DNA from: Natrinema sp. DC36
GTDB taxonomy: Archaea > Halobacteriota > Halobacteria > Halobacteriales > Natrialbaceae
Reading direction: 5' to 3'
DNA: 64,000 bases
Assembly: GCF_020405225.1 (NCBI RefSeq)
Contig: NZ_CP084474.1
Span: forward strand, 124,001 to 188,000
Position 1 is the stretch's first letter. Every line of letters starts with the position of its first letter. Of the stretch, positions 17,206 through 55,372 are shown piece after piece. The notes under the pieces are model-generated. The model had not been told where the DNA came from. It worked only from the letters and a program-made list of their open reading frames with translations, and made no database searches. Made by a program: the position numbers and the translations under genes.

Positions 17206-17329
17206 GGCTCTGTTGAAATACTTCAGCGTTGACATTGAGAAGAGCTACTCTCCCCTCCGGATTTCGTCGATCCGGTTAGAAACTAGCCTCTCAGCAAATC
17301 GCCAGACGTGAAGAGGTTTCAACAGAGCC
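17206..17329. mobile_element. 124-bp MITE with 8-bp target duplication
   Basis: It starts GGCTCTGTTGAAA and ends TTTCAACAGAGCC, matching the ends of the IS5-like element at 46117. It is flanked on both sides by ATTCACTC (17198-17205 and 17330-17337), a perfect 8-bp target-site duplication. The interior has no coding sequence. It is therefore a recent non-autonomous insertion mobilised by that transposase. A diverged second copy is at 59079-59199. Confidence 0.88.
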
Positions 17330-36670: not shown

Positions 36671-36843
36671 TAGACTTCGGCTCCCTGTTACAGAATCGTC
36701 TATCGATGAATTGTAACTTTATGACTATCGGCTCTGTTGAAATCTCTTCTTTAGATATATTCTCCTCTAAAATAGCGTTTCGCTGAAGACTGCGAATTGC
36801 CAATCGGCAAAACATTTATTTTCACATCTGGCCCCTCTTTCAT

Positions 36844-37032
36844 ATGGAAAGTCGATGGCTCCTATTGGGTTTCGGCCTGCTATTTGGAGCCTTGCTTATC
36901 GTGCATATCTATCAGGGAAATTCAGTCCAAGCTCTAATCGCGGTCGTTTTCACAATATTCGGTCTCGGTGGCTTTTGGTGGAACACAACTCACGAAAACA
37001 CGATTGAAACGAGATTTTCACTGTCTGACTAA
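36844..37032 (+). CDS. 62-residue two-helix membrane protein, copy 1
   Basis: MESRWLLLGFGLLFGALLIV begins the first helix and VVFTIFGLGGFWWN the second; the tail NTIETRFSLSD is charged. A homologue at 54309 has about 65 percent of residues alike, including GFWWN-THENTIETRF, and both lie beside GGCTCTGTTGAAA ends. A TTTATTTTC box sits 25-30 bp before the ATG. Function unknown. Confidence 0.75.
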   Translation: MESRWLLLGFGLLFGALLIVHIYQGNSVQALIAVVFTIFGLGGFWWNTTHENTIETRFSLSD

Positions 37033-37049
37033 CGTGCGATTCTGACCGT

Positions 37050-37140
37050 CTGTAATTACCGAAGCGACTCACCACATCAAGGGGAGCTCTCACCAGCCGA
37101 TTTGGAGTGAAACAGCCGTTAGGGAGGTATGCGAACTTAT
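37050..37140. repeat. Intergenic repeat ii, copy B
   Basis: Begins CTGTAATTACCGAAGC, continues with ACTCACCACATCAAGG and ends GGTATGCGAAC. It starts 17 bp after the stop of the 62-residue gene. Confidence 0.75.
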
Positions 37141-37193
37141 CGGATTTTCACCGACCGCAAACGTTATACCGGTATAGAAGTTATTATTCTGAT

Positions 37194-37409
37194 ATGTATG
37201 GAACTGTTCGGGATTCGCTTGAAGACTGGTATAATCCGAGTATTCAGTCTGCGGTGATTGTCTTGATGGGTTCGAGTTTTAGCCTCTTTCTGTTCCTCAA
37301 CAGTCCCGATTTTACGAACCCGTACTACGTTTTCGGAGTCGGAGTGATGGGCTTCGCAATCGTCTTTGCGGCGCTTATGCTCATTTCTGTGCTACTGAAG
37401 CGCCGATAG
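37194..37409 (+). CDS. Small two-helix membrane protein
   Basis: A 71-residue protein from the ATG at 37194: helix 1 SAVIVLMGSSFSLFLFLN and helix 2 VFGVGVMGFAIVFAALMLI, with the basic end LLKRR. It lies between two copies of repeat ii, so it looks like a single-gene cassette. Unknown function. Confidence 0.65.
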   Translation: MYGTVRDSLEDWYNPSIQSAVIVLMGSSFSLFLFLNSPDFTNPYYVFGVGVMGFAIVFAALMLISVLLKRR

Positions 37410-37418
37410 ACTACTACC

Positions 37419-37507
37419 CTGTACTTACCGAAGCGATCACCACATCGAGGGGAGTTCTCACCAGCGGGTTCCGAGTGAAACAGCCGCTCAGTAGGTGTGC
37501 GAACTGA
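37419..37507. repeat. Intergenic repeat ii, copy C
   Basis: Begins CTGTACTTACCGAAGC 9 bp behind the preceding stop codon and ends GGTGTGCGAACTGAAC. It is closest to copy A at 29881. Confidence 0.75.
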
Positions 37508-37560
37508 ACATTGCTCCGTGTTCGGTACGTTTTATCCTATTCCGCGCTAATATTTGAGCT

Positions 37561-38073
37561 ATGGTTTCCCGCCACTGGCTGTATTTCGGTGGATTCGTAA
37601 TCACTGGAATCCTGCTGATCGGTGCTACTCTGATGGGAATCGTGGACAGTCTATCAGCCCTCTCAGGTAGTGTACCCACTAGTGAGGAGTTCATTCTGAT
37701 AGCAATGCTCGGGGCAGCCGCTGAATGGGTGATGATCGTCCTTGTCCTCGGGTTAGTCGCAATGGTCTTTCTCGCTGCGACAGTTATCTCTGTCCTCCGA
37801 ACCGCGTCTCTTCCCCGCGACGATAGACTGGTCTCAATCGTCGAATGGGTTGAACAGAGGTACCCGGTCCTCCGTCGATTCGATGTCACGGAAAAGGTCA
37901 GCCCGACAACCGAGGATCGACGACAGCAACTCAAAGACCAGTATATCTCCGGTGAGATCAATGATGCCGAATTTGAACGGGAGATGGAGCAGCTGATGAA
38001 CGACGCCGCATCAACGGAGGAGTCACAGTCCGGAACCGAGACAACAATCGAAACCGATGACAAATCACGATGA
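37561..38073 (+). CDS. SHOCT-domain membrane protein
   Basis: A 170-residue protein with two or three N-terminal helices (about 5-27, 50-80) and a C-terminal SHOCT motif at about 118-142: QQLKDQYISGEINDAEFERE. SHOCT is a short helical oligomerisation motif. Its promoter lies between repeat ii copy C and the ATG (TTTTATCC). Function unknown. Confidence 0.8.
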   Translation: MVSRHWLYFGGFVITGILLIGATLMGIVDSLSALSGSVPTSEEFILIAMLGAAAEWVMIVLVLGLVAMVFLAATVISVLRTASLPRDDRLVSIVEWVEQRYPVLRRFDVTEKVSPTTEDRRQQLKDQYISGEINDAEFEREMEQLMNDAASTEESQSGTETTIETDDKSR

Positions 38074-38302
38074 CTATAACCTCTGCATTGGTCCGTTAGC
38101 AGGTTGTCTCAACAAGGGACAGTTTTACTCCTCCTGATGTATAATAAATAAGACCATCGGTGCATATGACAGAGTTGAACTCTCTGTTGACCGAGTCTGG
38201 TGTTCTCTGATGAGCAGTTATTCAGTCTGTCAAACACTCATGTCGCTGAATGAATGGATGCGATTCTTCCACGATTTGCTTCAATAGAAACCGTCAACCG
38301 CG

Positions 38303-38596
38303 TCATTCGTCCGCCGATACCGGTTCGCCGTCTTTCATATGCCATTCGAGTTCAACTTCTAACTCGGCCTCGTCGTCGGTGACCTCGTACTCGACCTCCA
38401 GTTCGAAGTGCTCTGGAACCGCCACCGTGAAGCCGTTCTCTCCTTCGATGTCGATTGTCCCATTCTCGACACCATCAGCAACTTCACGGAGAATCCCCGC
38501 ACCCTCTGTCCGACTCATCACCCGCTCTCCTTCATGCTCCGTCTCATCATCTTCCGATTCCGCTTCGGTCTCGGATTCTTCTTTGTCGTTTGGCAT
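38303..38596 (-). CDS. Amphi-Trp domain protein
   Basis: A 97-residue protein from the ATG at 38596 (MPNDKEESE). After an acidic head, residues 28-92 carry the amphi-Trp pattern: SRTEGAGILREVADGVENGT, then VAVPEHFELEVEYEVTDDEA and LEVELEWHM. A small haloarchaeal domain of unknown function. Confidence 0.82.
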   Translation of the reverse strand: MPNDKEESETEAESEDDETEHEGERVMSRTEGAGILREVADGVENGTIDIEGENGFTVAVPEHFELEVEYEVTDDEAELEVELEWHMKDGEPVSADE

Positions 38597-38740
38597 ACCG
38601 GACCTACAACGGCTCCCAATAAAATATCTCGGTCTATATCTCCGCCTAGTTTGATCGGCGGTAGTCACCACTTCTATCGAGACATCACCAGGAGGATCCT
38701 TACTGTATTAAGTGGTGAGTGTATGTTCTATATTGACTGC

Positions 38741-39562
38741 TTAGAGTGATCGGTCGATGTTGTGACTGAGACAAGCGATAGTGAGTTCACGGAACTGCTT
38801 CCACCAGCGTCGTGAGCGAACGAATGCACCGTACTTCCGCTTGAGCGTTGAGTTGACTGCCTCAGATTGACTTCGTTGTCCGTAGAGATTAGCGTCTAAG
38901 CGTGCGTTCCATGCCCGATGAAGTGACGCGAACTCACGATGTTTGATCAGTGGACGAACCTCGTATTGACGGGCAAGTCGCCTGATTTTCTGATCGTCGT
39001 AGCCTTTGTCATCAAGCAGAATATCGATACTCTCGGGATTGCGCTTGATCAACGACGGGGCGATCTGGCTATCGTGTTTTCGTGTCGTCGTCACGTGTAG
39101 GTCGAGGATCGCGTTCACTTTCGTATCGACCAGCAGCGTCACTTTGAGCTGCTGAATCGTGAGCTCAGCCCGTTTCGTGTAGTGTTTCGAGACGTGACTG
39201 CGGTCGAATCCTGACGCATCAATCCCAACAACGCCGGCTGTCGGAAGTAACGTCGCTGAGAGAGTCAATAAGATACGCCACACAACCATGTCAAGTCGAT
39301 TGAACGCCTTACAGAGCGTTGATGGCATAGGAAGCTCGGCTAACCCGAGAACACGACGGATACGTGGCATTTCGATCAGTTCGTCAAGTAGGCCACGGTC
39401 GGTTGTGTTCTTTCGAACTTTGAGACACAGCAGAACAACGTGCTGCGGGAGCGTATAGCGGTGTTTGGAGAACTTCGAGGAGTATCGAGAGACGACGCGG
39501 CGTGCCAGATGGAGCGCCTTCTCAGTAAACCGGAGAATCTGCGACTTCGGGAGGGCCTTCAT
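38741..39562 (-). CDS. IS5-like transposase, copy 1
   Basis: A 273-residue DDE transposase, nearly identical to the one at 46169. Catalytic residues are seen in VVGIDASGFDR, ILLDDKGYDDQK and the late SQSEAVNSTLKRKYG. The head MKALPKSQILRFTEKALHLA is typical of a haloarchaeal IS5/IS4-superfamily group. Apparently intact. Its right-hand terminus with the partner gene seen in copy 2 is missing here. Confidence 0.92.
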   Translation of the reverse strand: MKALPKSQILRFTEKALHLARRVVSRYSSKFSKHRYTLPQHVVLLCLKVRKNTTDRGLLDELIEMPRIRRVLGLAELPMPSTLCKAFNRLDMVVWRILLTLSATLLPTAGVVGIDASGFDRSHVSKHYTKRAELTIQQLKVTLLVDTKVNAILDLHVTTTRKHDSQIAPSLIKRNPESIDILLDDKGYDDQKIRRLARQYEVRPLIKHREFASLHRAWNARLDANLYGQRSQSEAVNSTLKRKYGAFVRSRRWWKQFRELTIACLSHNIDRSL

Positions 39563-39765
39563 CTCGTGTAATTACAGGACGAATATGTAACTCTTTGAGG
39601 ATTTCAACAGAGCCTGTGGTTTACAGTAGCTATGGCCGTAGTCGGCGTTATAGCTGGGATTTGGTCTCTGGTTGGACAGTACCAAGCGATAACTACTCAC
39701 CCTGTACTGAACAGCGATTCCAGAAATTCCACCGTTGCAACTATCTTCATCTAATTAGGAATCGC

Positions 39766-46108: not shown

Positions 46109-46168
46109 GAATTTCTGGCTCTGTTGAAATCCTCAGAGAGTTACATGTTCGCCGTGTAATCCTACGAG

Positions 46169-46990
46169 ATGAAGGCCCTCCCGAAGTCGCAGATTCTCCG
46201 GTTTACTGAGAAGGCGATCCATCTGGCGCGTCGAGCGGTCTCTCGATACTCCTCGAAATTTTCCAAACACCGCTACACACTTCCTCAGCACGTTGTTCTG
46301 CTGTGTCTCAAAGTTCGAAAGAACACAACCTATCGTGGCCTGCTTGATGAGCTGATCGAGATGCCACGTATCCGTCGTGTTATCGGACTAGCTGAACTTC
46401 CTACGCCATCAACGCTCTGTAAGGCGTTCAATCGACTTGACATGGCTGTCTGGCGTGTCATGTTGACTCTCTCAGCGACGTTACTTCCGACGAGCGGCGT
46501 TGTTGGGATTGATGCGTCAGGGTTCGACCGCAGTCACGCTTCGAAACACTATACGAAACGCGCTGAACTCACGATTCAACAGCTCAAAGTGACACTACTG
46601 GTCGATGCGAAGGTGAATGCAATTCTCGATCTCCATGTGACGACGACACGAAAACACGATAGCCAGATCGCCCCGTCGTTGATCAAGCGCAATCCCGAGA
46701 GTATCGATATTCTGCTTGATGACAAAGGCTACGACGATCAGAAAATTAGACGACTTGCCCATCATCACGAGATTCGCCCACTGGTCAAGCATCGTGAGTT
46801 CACATCGCTCCACAAGGCATGGAACACTCGCTTAGACACTGATCTCTATGGCCAGCGGAGTCAGTCCGAGACCGTCAACTCGACACTCAAGCGAAAGTAC
46901 GGTGCGTTCGTCCGGTCACGACGCTGGTGGAAACAGTTTCGTGAACTCACTATCGCCTGTCTTACTCATAACGTAGATCGATCACTCTGA
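46169..46990 (+). CDS. IS5-like transposase, copy 2
   Basis: A 273-residue DDE transposase, starting 52 bp from the left tip. First Asp in VVGIDASGFDR, second in ILLDDKGYDDQK, with the conserved TVNSTLKRKYGAFVRSRRWW late block. It differs from copy 1 at about twenty positions, so the two are not a very recent duplication. Confidence 0.93.
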   Translation: MKALPKSQILRFTEKAIHLARRAVSRYSSKFSKHRYTLPQHVVLLCLKVRKNTTYRGLLDELIEMPRIRRVIGLAELPTPSTLCKAFNRLDMAVWRVMLTLSATLLPTSGVVGIDASGFDRSHASKHYTKRAELTIQQLKVTLLVDAKVNAILDLHVTTTRKHDSQIAPSLIKRNPESIDILLDDKGYDDQKIRRLAHHHEIRPLVKHREFTSLHKAWNTRLDTDLYGQRSQSETVNSTLKRKYGAFVRSRRWWKQFRELTIACLTHNVDRSL

Positions 46991-47008
46991 ACGGTCAATA
47001 CAAGAGAG

Positions 47009-47185
47009 CTATTCACTAACGATGTTCTCGATAATGGCGGTTCCTGCGACGTAGACAGGGAGCATGAACAGAATCATCAGAACAGGAATCACGATGAACA
47101 CAGGTGTATTCCCATCCCCTGTTTCGTAAACAAGCGCAGCTAACAGAAACGCAATCAGAGCTAGGAGCAATTCAGTGCGATCCAT
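47009..47185 (-). CDS. Passenger gene of the IS5-like element: 58-residue membrane protein
   Basis: From the ATG at 47185: MDRTELLLALIAFLLAALVY, then ETGDGNTPVF and helix 2 IVIPVLMILFMLPVYVAG. Two helices with a short acidic loop. It is on the strand opposite to the transposase and 18 bp from its end, within the target duplication. No family recognised. Passenger genes are rare in IS5-type elements. Confidence 0.65.
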   Translation of the reverse strand: MDRTELLLALIAFLLAALVYETGDGNTPVFIVIPVLMILFMLPVYVAGTAIIENIVSE

Positions 47186-47301
47186 ATCGGCACAACAGTA
47201 TCGAGCTGTGTTATGATTTCGGTGTGTACGCAGTTTTCGTGACCGGCTGTTTCAGACAAAAATGTGTCTGAAGAATAGGATTTCAACAGAGCCGAATTTC
47301 T

Positions 47302-54235: not shown

Positions 54236-54291
54236 GGCTCTGTTGAAAAGCTTAGAATATGATAGGTTGGCCCCCTCTGCGGTAAGTACAG
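54236..54291. repeat. 56-bp element end, second copy
   Basis: GGCTCTGTTGAAA through CGGTAAGTACAG, matching 21694-21750. Past the motif it runs into the 3' end of the 62-residue gene; the homologous gene at 36844 has repeat ii at this point instead. Confidence 0.7.
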
Positions 54292-54308
54292 ACAGTCAGA
54301 GTATCACG

Positions 54309-54497
54309 TTAGCCAGACCGTGAAAATCTCGTTTCAATCGTATTTTCGTGAGTTGAGTTCCACCAGAAGCCACTGAGACCGAAGACGGTCTGAACGACTG
54401 CGATGGCGGCTATTAGGGCCTTTCCTTGGTAGATGGCCCCGATCGTTACCCCCGTAAAGAGCAGGCCGTATCCCAAGAGAAGCCAACGATTGTCCAT
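54309..54497 (-). CDS. 62-residue two-helix membrane protein, copy 2
   Basis: MDNRWLLLGYGLLFTGVTIG, second helix VQTVFGLSGFWWN, tail NTIETRFSRSG. Homologue of the gene at 36844, including the non-coding stretch after the stop. An IS6-like element sits 5 bp upstream of its start codon and has probably removed or replaced the promoter. Confidence 0.75.
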   Translation of the reverse strand: MDNRWLLLGYGLLFTGVTIGAIYQGKALIAAIAVVQTVFGLSGFWWNSTHENTIETRFSRSG

Positions 54498-54502
54498 ATT
54501 GG

Positions 54503-55242
54503 CACTGTCTAGTTGAGCCAGTTTGAGAAGTGAGCAGGTCGTACTGTTGAGTTGGTTGATGCTCGCAGACCTGCTCAGCGAGAGCTACGAGGCGGATTTA
54601 GAAGAATCTTGGGAGAACGAGCGGACGGCGACGCCCGTCAGGGCGTTCGCCGTCCGCCTCCATCAGACCGGTTGTTCGCTTCGAGAGACAACAACGATTC
54701 TCGCTGAATTAGGCGTTGAACGCTCTCACGGTGCGGTTTGGAACTGGGTACATCGACTGGCTGACAGCGGACGCGACCCGCCGACGGCATCGCCGTCGCG
54801 GGTCGCTGTTGACGAGACTGCTGTCAAGATTAACGGCGAATGGTCTTGGCTGTACGCTGCAATAGACATCGAGACAAAGTTGATTCTCGATGTCGCGTTA
54901 TTTGGTCGGCACGGTACCGATCCGGCAGCTGCGTTTCTGCATGGACTCCGCGAGAAACACGATCTCTCAGATGCTGAGTTTCTCGTCGATCAATTCGGCT
55001 ATCGGACTGCCCTCTCTCGATTAGGATTAAGCGGTCGGACCAACTATACCGAGCGAAACCTGATCGAAAAGTGGTTTCACACCCTCAAAATGCGGATCGA
55101 CCGCTTCCATAATTCATGGGTAGGCAGTCGGACGAGCGTTCGAGAGTGGCTTGAACAATTCGTGCATTACTACAATCACCAGAGACCGCATCAATCTCTC
55201 GGAGGAAAAACGCCGGTTGAGAAGGTGCAGAACTAGACAGTG
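54503..55242. mobile_element. IS6-like element, second type, 740 bp
   Basis: Bounded by CACTGTCTAGTT / AACTAGACAGTG (12 bp inverted). No target duplication is obvious (CATATTGG left, ACTCCATA right). A single transposase gene fills it. Confidence 0.82.
54559..55236 (+). CDS. IS6-like DDE transposase
   Basis: A 225-residue transposase from the ATG at 54559 (MLADLLSESYE). HTH: CSLRETTTILAELGVERSHG. Catalytic Asp in VAVDETAVK, Asp in FLVDQFGYR, Glu in NLIEKWFHTLKMR. The end YNHQRPHQSLGGKTP is typical of the superfamily. A longer start at 54523 (TTG) is possible. Intact. Confidence 0.9.
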   Translation: MLADLLSESYEADLEESWENERTATPVRAFAVRLHQTGCSLRETTTILAELGVERSHGAVWNWVHRLADSGRDPPTASPSRVAVDETAVKINGEWSWLYAAIDIETKLILDVALFGRHGTDPAAAFLHGLREKHDLSDAEFLVDQFGYRTALSRLGLSGRTNYTERNLIEKWFHTLKMRIDRFHNSWVGSRTSVREWLEQFVHYYNHQRPHQSLGGKTPVEKVQN

Positions 55243-55372
55243 ACTCCATATTATTAATATCACGACCTACCCCATTACTGTTTCGACGATAGTACGTTCG
55301 CACCTTCAGTGAGCGGCTGTTTCATACTATGCTATATCTGGAAAATAGAATGTCAATAGAGCCGCAGGTTCC

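Follow-up and report, generated by a model that had tools for sequence, protein, structure and literature searches.

An IS5-family clade of haloarchaea that appears to carry exchangeable passenger genes

The window analysed here is a stretch of 64,000 nucleotides from Natrinema sp. DC36 (contig NZ_CP084474.1, positions 124,001 to 188,000). At 46117-47293, on the plus strand, lies a 1177-bp IS5-family element that holds a transposase gene and, on the reverse strand, a gene for a 58-aa protein (Table 1). The left end GGCTCTGTTGAAATCCT (46117-46133) and the right end AGGATTTCAACAGAGCC (47277-47293), 17 bp each, are inverted repeats without a mismatch, and GAATTTCT stands on each side, so that the boundaries proposed in the initial annotation, 17-bp inverted ends and an 8-bp duplication, both proved exact. 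The transposase scored 208.7 bits with the NCBIfam model NF033579 (transpos_IS5_2, cutoff 140), which satisfies the criterion of an IS5 family DDE transposase, and the criterion of terminal inverted repeats with a short target duplication was met as well (17 bp and 8 bp). The 58-residue two-helix gene described in the opposite direction was also recovered, with an ATG start and two helices predicted by AlphaFold2. In the adjoining segment 45522-46067, frames resembling fragments of TnpB-type (IS200/IS605 OrfB) proteins were seen by eye only, and the insertion may lie next to a degraded tnpB.

Table 1 Features of the passenger-carrying element, the second copy and the likely cassette (window positions).
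Feature	Position	Strand	Evidence or remark
Complete passenger-carrying IS5-family element	46117-47293	+	Perfect 17-bp inverted repeats, 8-bp target duplication
Target duplication GAATTTCT, left copy	46109-46116		Flanks the focal element
Target duplication GAATTTCT, right copy	47294-47301		Flanks the focal element
Left end, 52 bp, inverted repeat to start codon	46117-46168	+	59 closed copies share this spacing; the sixtieth has 53 bp
IS5-family transposase, 273 aa	46169-46990	+	NF033579 E 1.3e-61; PF01609
Conserved junction after the stop codon (ACGGTCAATACAAG), bounding the passenger slot on the left	46991-47006	+	Alignment of 60 copies
Passenger gene, 58-aa two-helix membrane protein	47009-47185	-	Relatives, dN/dS, AlphaFold2 two-helix model (pLDDT 93)
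Type A right end with some 67 conserved bp, bounding the passenger slot on the right	47227-47293	+	End profile E 3.8e-19
Second copy, transposase and several small genes, no target duplication	36730-39614	-	End searches, end profile
Transposase of the second copy, 91% identical	38741-39562	-	Comparison with the focal transposase group
Type A right end of the second copy	36730-36796	-	End profile E 1.3e-11; 2 mismatches within 17 bp
62-aa small membrane protein gene	36844-37032	+	Paralogue at 54309-54497, 69% identity
71-aa small membrane protein gene (100 aa from upstream GTG at 37107)	37194-37409	+	ORF
170-aa membrane protein, weak SHOCT match	37561-38073	+	Profile match
122-aa Amphi-Trp domain protein	38303-38671	-	PF20068 E 1.4e-12
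Inner half of a type A end between two genes (border remnant)	37105-37135	-	End profile E 0.005, positions 2-32 of 68
Inner half of a type A end between two genes (border remnant)	37470-37503	-	End profile E 4e-4, positions 2-35 of 68
Likely transposase-less cassette of the same end family (no own transposase), no target duplication	54236-55363		End-like 54236-54252, type A end 55297-55363

The second copy in the window has an exact left end at 39598-39614. Because its flanking 8-mers differ (TGACTATC versus TGTGGTTT), its right border is less certain and its extent only probable. The four small genes that had been noted between its transposase and position 36730 are present, with products of 62, 71-100, 170 and 122 aa. 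The DNA at 37127-37424 is 97% identical to a stretch of a genome of the same genus. A repeat of about 90 bp at 37417-37506, which overlaps an inner type A half-end, was found dispersed in the window genome and its relatives at 76-89% identity. The likely cassette at 54236-55363 encloses a 62-aa gene (54309-54497, minus strand) and a transposase gene (54523-55236), assigned to the IS6 type by eye from its likeness to the transposase of L158. A 124-bp MITE with the same ends and the duplication ATTCACTC lies at 17206-17329, and a similar 124-bp unit lies elsewhere in the same genome (G000:C1:1985036-1985159).

We then surveyed 391 evenly drawn haloarchaeal genomes, and the transposase was detected at E <= 1e-60 in 202 of them, about half. 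In a whole-phylum sample, matches above 55% identity were confined to the window's own order. The flanks of about 125 transposase copies were read, and a copy was regarded as closed when a left end, a right end and an 8-bp target duplication were all found. Sixty distinct copies qualified, with exact duplications in 59 and one mismatch in the remaining one (L153). The closed copies have a constant left part (52 bp) and transposase, with 302 to 3145 bp between the stop codon and the right end. A further 64 entries, about half of the copies and including a few repeats of closed copies and cut-off contigs, lacked a target duplication by which to close them, and none of these 64 showed a right end with up to 2 mismatches within 200 bp of the stop codon. 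As a control, sister IS5 groups of the same class were treated by the same procedure and showed only 22-32 bp after the stop codon, with a total length of 935-979 bp (n = 7), compared to 302-1137 bp after the stop codon for the focal group under that procedure (n = 13). The 60 focal transposases were monophyletic against 27 sister sequences in a FastTree phylogeny (support 0.93). The statement that IS5-type elements normally carry the transposase only was upheld for the sister groups and failed for the focal clade, where a passenger is the rule; the compact layout, usual in IS5 without being strictly defining, is not met here. Judged from the sequences, a passenger is practically always present among the copies read and mostly varies among them. 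With 391 genomes sampled and only matches above about 78% identity listed, copies without a passenger may still exist elsewhere in the clade.

The comparison of other haloarchaeal copies between stop codon and right end, for which the initial annotation had called, gave 55 distinct contents among the 60 closed copies, unrelated to each other by blastn clustering. Its suggestion that cargo exchange may be usual in this family was borne out, with nearly every closed copy holding a different content. The sequences of the copies remain alike until about 13 bp past the stop codon (GGTCAATACAG) and match again over the last 50-68 bp, where two types of right end were distinguished, type A in 49 and type B in 11 closed copies (the type of L183 and L211 may be misassigned, a short motif having been used). 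The same ends were also found without a transposase. A cassette in the window's own genome (L010, G000:C2:204007-204722) is 716 bp long, with a 155-aa lipoprotein-like gene and the duplication GATGGTTT. Since the left arm of such cassettes ends in a similar GGTCAGTACAG motif, the slot border appears to be shared with them. A further transposase-less cassette at G000:C3:247999-248649, flanked by AAGTGAGT/AAGCGAGT, holds by eye a relative of pyridoxamine-phosphate oxidases.

The contents turn over faster than the transposase. Thirty transposase pairs with 93-97% DNA identity had no passenger in common, and two copies from different taxonomic families (L216 and L217) agree over the left 939 bp (99.8%) and the right 60 bp (100%) around unrelated insides of about 0.77 and 2.33 kb. 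Passengers have also moved between transposase lineages and hosts. The ilvD content of L154 recurs in contig C60 of genome G231 with 87.6% identity over 2 kb, with transposases just 73-75% identical, and L164 and L172 share a passenger (94% at the amino acid level) with transposases 87% identical and right ends of type A and type B, respectively. The same G231 contig holds a closed 3463-bp element with an acyl-CoA dehydrogenase gene, which by its amino-terminal sequence is the gene found beside a truncated copy in the window's own genome (C2:37275-39806). The acyl-CoA dehydrogenase and ilvD passengers lie there in two clade elements in direct tandem, 17 bp apart (L276:429-7276). Within the pairs L151/L152, L168/L169 and L186/L188 the same passenger was found at different sites, with target duplications that enclose the whole unit (no transposition assay). 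For the threonine synthase of L191, the genome's own main chromosome has a counterpart with 88% identity and no IS ends, a sign that passengers originate from chromosomal genes.

The anatomy, the universality among the copies read, the turnover and the passenger transfer between lineages and hosts, all read off DNA comparisons, together with the transposase-less cassettes, lead us to regard the group as a clade of passenger-carrying insertion sequences ('transporter IS'). We hold it to be highly probable that it represents a self-mobile IS5-family element with a built-in exchangeable passenger slot. The transposase would recognise the left end (the 17-bp repeat within 52 bp) and the right end (the same repeat within about 65 bp) and would cut or copy everything between them, producing the 8-bp target duplication. 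The transposase and left end form one fixed block and the right end another. The passenger, usually one complete gene and sometimes two or more, fills the space from the junction, some 13 bp past the stop codon, to the right end; in the focal copy it is the 58-aa two-helix membrane protein. From the target duplications and near-identical copies we infer that the elements are active now, no transposition having been observed.

That passengers enter when transposition makes use of a right end lying farther off, in an adjacent element or cassette, and are swapped by recombination between copies, is an inference to which we give an even chance. In L114, a complete type A end at 9-76 bp after the stop codon is followed by 701 bp and then by a type B end with the target duplication outside, a layout that would be expected if transposition had used the distal right end and taken along the intervening gene. 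End remnants were also found inside L122, L147 and L213. A different account, with a nearly even chance of being correct, is that swapping proceeds mainly by homologous recombination between copies, with one crossover on the left in the transposase gene and the other on the right in or outside the right end, and not by capture through a distal end. It would explain the identical outer parts of L216 and L217 around different insides, and the direct tandem of L276 would be a crossover substrate, but it does not account for the complete inner right end retained in L114 or the partial inner ends of the second window copy, L122, L147 and L213, and the initial entry of a chromosomal gene would still require another step. 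Capture of all passengers through a distal right end was set aside, as most junctions show no inner end. Since most copies have no internal right-end remnant at the junction, recombination between copies or another route must be common, and we infer that recombination probably does much of the swapping, with the L276 tandem pair as a ready substrate. In two genomes (G065 and G068), several copies (L130-L135 and L144) share a 319-bp content and a 57-aa passenger, and their target duplications are mostly absent. A wrong delimitation of these unclosed copies was considered; the repeated appearance of a single right flank (TATGTACCTTAA) after several distinct left flanks fits and suggests recombination between copies.

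Most slots of the closed copies contain one dominant frame, on either strand, and a few hold two or more genes. The passengers identified by Pfam are full-length known genes. Among the enzymes were a dihydroxy-acid dehydratase (ILVD_EDD, IlvD; L154), a threonine synthase (PALP; L191), a hexapeptide acetyltransferase (Mac/Hexapep; L098), an LMW phosphatase (LMWPc; L155), FMN_dh (L161), GST (L209), RibD_C (L211), a methyltransferase (L204) and an abhydrolase with HTH_10 (L190). We found also a PAS/histidine kinase (L192), a periplasmic binding protein with an oxidoreductase (L197), a formate/nitrite transporter with TrkA_C (L217), RDD (L153) and SnoaL (L201). A clean 3152-bp clade member of the window's own genome (L084:2679-5830, that is G000:C3:236678-239829), with the duplication GAACGATT, carries a transposase and a 622-aa multicopper oxidase. 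Two contents include nested transposases, one IS6-like and one IS66. Pfam gave no match for ten small contents, nearly all membrane proteins. Of the distinct contents of up to 170 aa, 27 of 39 had at least two predicted membrane helices, whereas among 25 annotated small CDS taken from two haloarchaeal plasmids only 2 did (Fisher p = 1.5e-6). The bias is no more than indicative, because it rests on a simple hydropathy score, a frame chosen by length and a small background; for some small passengers, which frame is the gene was judged by length. A 2357-bp unit (L211:2114-4470) has weak ends of the focal family, the duplication GCAAACGC, a TnpB-like frame of 349 aa and a 170-aa membrane protein.

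For the 58-aa gene, a six-frame genome search found relatives in 39 of the 391 genomes of the class, with zero internal stops, compared to two loci only in a scan of the genome contigs. The nearest relative, 91% identical, is from Halalkalirubrum salinum and lies in a 348-bp unit (L043) with both IS ends and the duplication AAACAGAT and no transposase. A Natronomonas gomsonensis copy (74%) has no such IS ends, and the main contig of the window genome carries a 49% relative. The window copy and the Halalkalirubrum cassette copy differ at 2, 3 and 12 sites at codon positions 1, 2 and 3, which corresponds to dN 0.040 and dS 0.347 (dN/dS about 0.12). Residues M1, R3, T4, D24, P43 and Y45 are common to the 11 aligned members, one of which (L203) is a distant candidate with 30% identity. 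The AlphaFold2 model places helices at residues 3-22 and 29-56 (pLDDT 93). Among 32 homologue loci scanned, a transposase of the focal group was found only at the window's own locus, so that no element combining it with the 58-aa gene was seen elsewhere among them, and just one homologue came from the plasmid collection. The frame is missing from every other one of the 60 closed copies, and no Pfam family was matched at cutoff. Evidence for a promoter conserved upstream of the family was unconvincing; the window copy and L043 share the bases before the start codon, and the others diverge. By these patterns, the frame is a real gene under purifying selection, beyond a chance frame, and a haloarchaeal gene that is also found free in chromosomes and in a transposase-less cassette. 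As a best guess of low confidence, we infer that its product is a membrane-embedded hairpin that modulates an envelope process. Two decayed copies in the same genome, with internally deleted transposases (G000:C2:61856-62848 and G000:C4:76440-77418), both retain a reverse-oriented 57-aa two-helix frame in a layout like that of the focal element.

The small membrane-protein passengers might instead be selfish maintenance modules, such as growth-inhibiting hairpins or proteins that exclude viruses or other elements, and so stabilise the element in its host. We regard this as unlikely: the strong bias toward small two-helix proteins and the predicted hairpin of the 58-aa protein would fit, and Hlac_3088, the published passenger of a haloarchaeal transposon, was proposed to hinder virus attachment (PMC10544981), but no partner antitoxin gene is present in the 300-bp slot, relatives of the 58-aa gene exist as lone chromosomal genes and the larger passengers are metabolic. 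It is very improbable that the right-hand genes serve accessory functions in transposition, as regulators or in immunity, and are not unrelated passengers. Content is always present, and the excess of small contents with at least two helices (27/39 versus 2/25) gives a hint of a shared role; against this, 60 copies hold 55 unrelated contents, with biosynthetic enzymes and transporters among them, and closed sister IS5 copies do without any content. Scarcely tenable is the reading of the 58-aa frame as neutral filler between transposase and right end, since, although frames this short arise by chance, no Pfam family was matched and the frame is absent from all other closed copies, it has stop-free relatives in 39 genomes, conserved residues such as R3, T4, D24, P43 and Y45, a dN far below dS between two mobile copies, and full-length known enzymes in the same slot of other copies. 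The initial annotation had stated that the frame would be filler if all other copies lacked it; the other closed copies do lack it, and the inference to filler failed, given complete other genes at that place and a frame conserved outside the element.

The preferred reading remains that of a self-mobile IS5-family element with an exchangeable passenger slot. A broader one, which we advance only tentatively and would not expect to hold in full, is that the IS5 clade and the transposase-less cassettes, with their standard borders (the GGTCAATACAG junction and a 65-bp right end), may constitute a haloarchaeal transposon-based gene-cassette system, by which single genes, above all those of small two-helix membrane proteins, would be routinely loaded, swapped and spread class-wide in an integron-like manner. 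A benefit of the passengers to the host is inferred. Haloarchaea are known for heavy gene exchange. Detected in about half of the haloarchaeal genomes that were sampled, the clade would be a widespread vehicle, each copy bearing host genes of its own, with those of biosynthetic enzymes and transporters among them, and it offers a concrete, testable route for single-gene transfer between haloarchaea. It may also serve as a marker for recently moved genes, as a source of uncharacterised small membrane proteins and possibly as a delivery tool in archaeal genetics.

According to a study from 2019 on integrated elements of archaea, no composite DNA transposons bearing diverse passenger genes had been detected there (PMC6563490). 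The criterion of a composite transposon is not met by the elements described here, as every closed unit contains a single transposase of the group and a single pair of ends. No description of an IS clade with passengers as the rule was found in the open-access literature searched, and a prior note in the subscription literature or ISfinder is possible. The passenger concept itself is already known; what appears undescribed is that an entire clade, and an archaeal one, should have a passenger slot that is exchangeable and seemingly obligatory. The RefSeq IS5-like elements ISHla2 (Halorubrum lacusprofundi) and ISHxa2 (Halopiger xanaduensis) have transposases 92-93% identical to the focal one and the same left end, and the CDS next downstream (174 bp and 711 bp) is in each case annotated as a hypothetical protein. 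Unlike in our reading, both are annotated as plain IS5-like transposases, with the adjacent genes not assigned to the element. Hlac_3088, a passenger gene of a Halorubrum lacusprofundi transposon, was reported as an isolated case (PMC10544981), and one clade copy carries a surface-protein gene that fits its description, the identity of the two loci being unconfirmed. The likeness of the exchange to that of integron gene cassettes is only analogous, attC and an integron integrase being no part of the evidence. The criterion of mobile insertion cassettes, IS ends round a gene without transposase, is met by the 348-bp Halalkalirubrum unit and the 716-bp unit of the window's own genome and is not applicable to 46117-47293; unlike in such cassettes, autonomous elements and cassettes here share one kind of passenger, with the 58-aa gene in both forms. 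A close parallel in kind is given by transporter insertion sequences (tIS), defined as IS copies with passenger genes (ISsaga, PMC3129680; IS6 review, PMC7986276). Like these, the focal clade has one transposase, one pair of ends and genes unrelated to transposition, and the criterion of a transposition-unrelated gene inside the IS ends is met by the full-length enzymes and transporters within closed elements. Described tIS are single members within a family, such as ISDsp3 in IS6, whereas in the present clade, of archaeal host and IS5 family, all closed copies carry passengers, which vary by copy.
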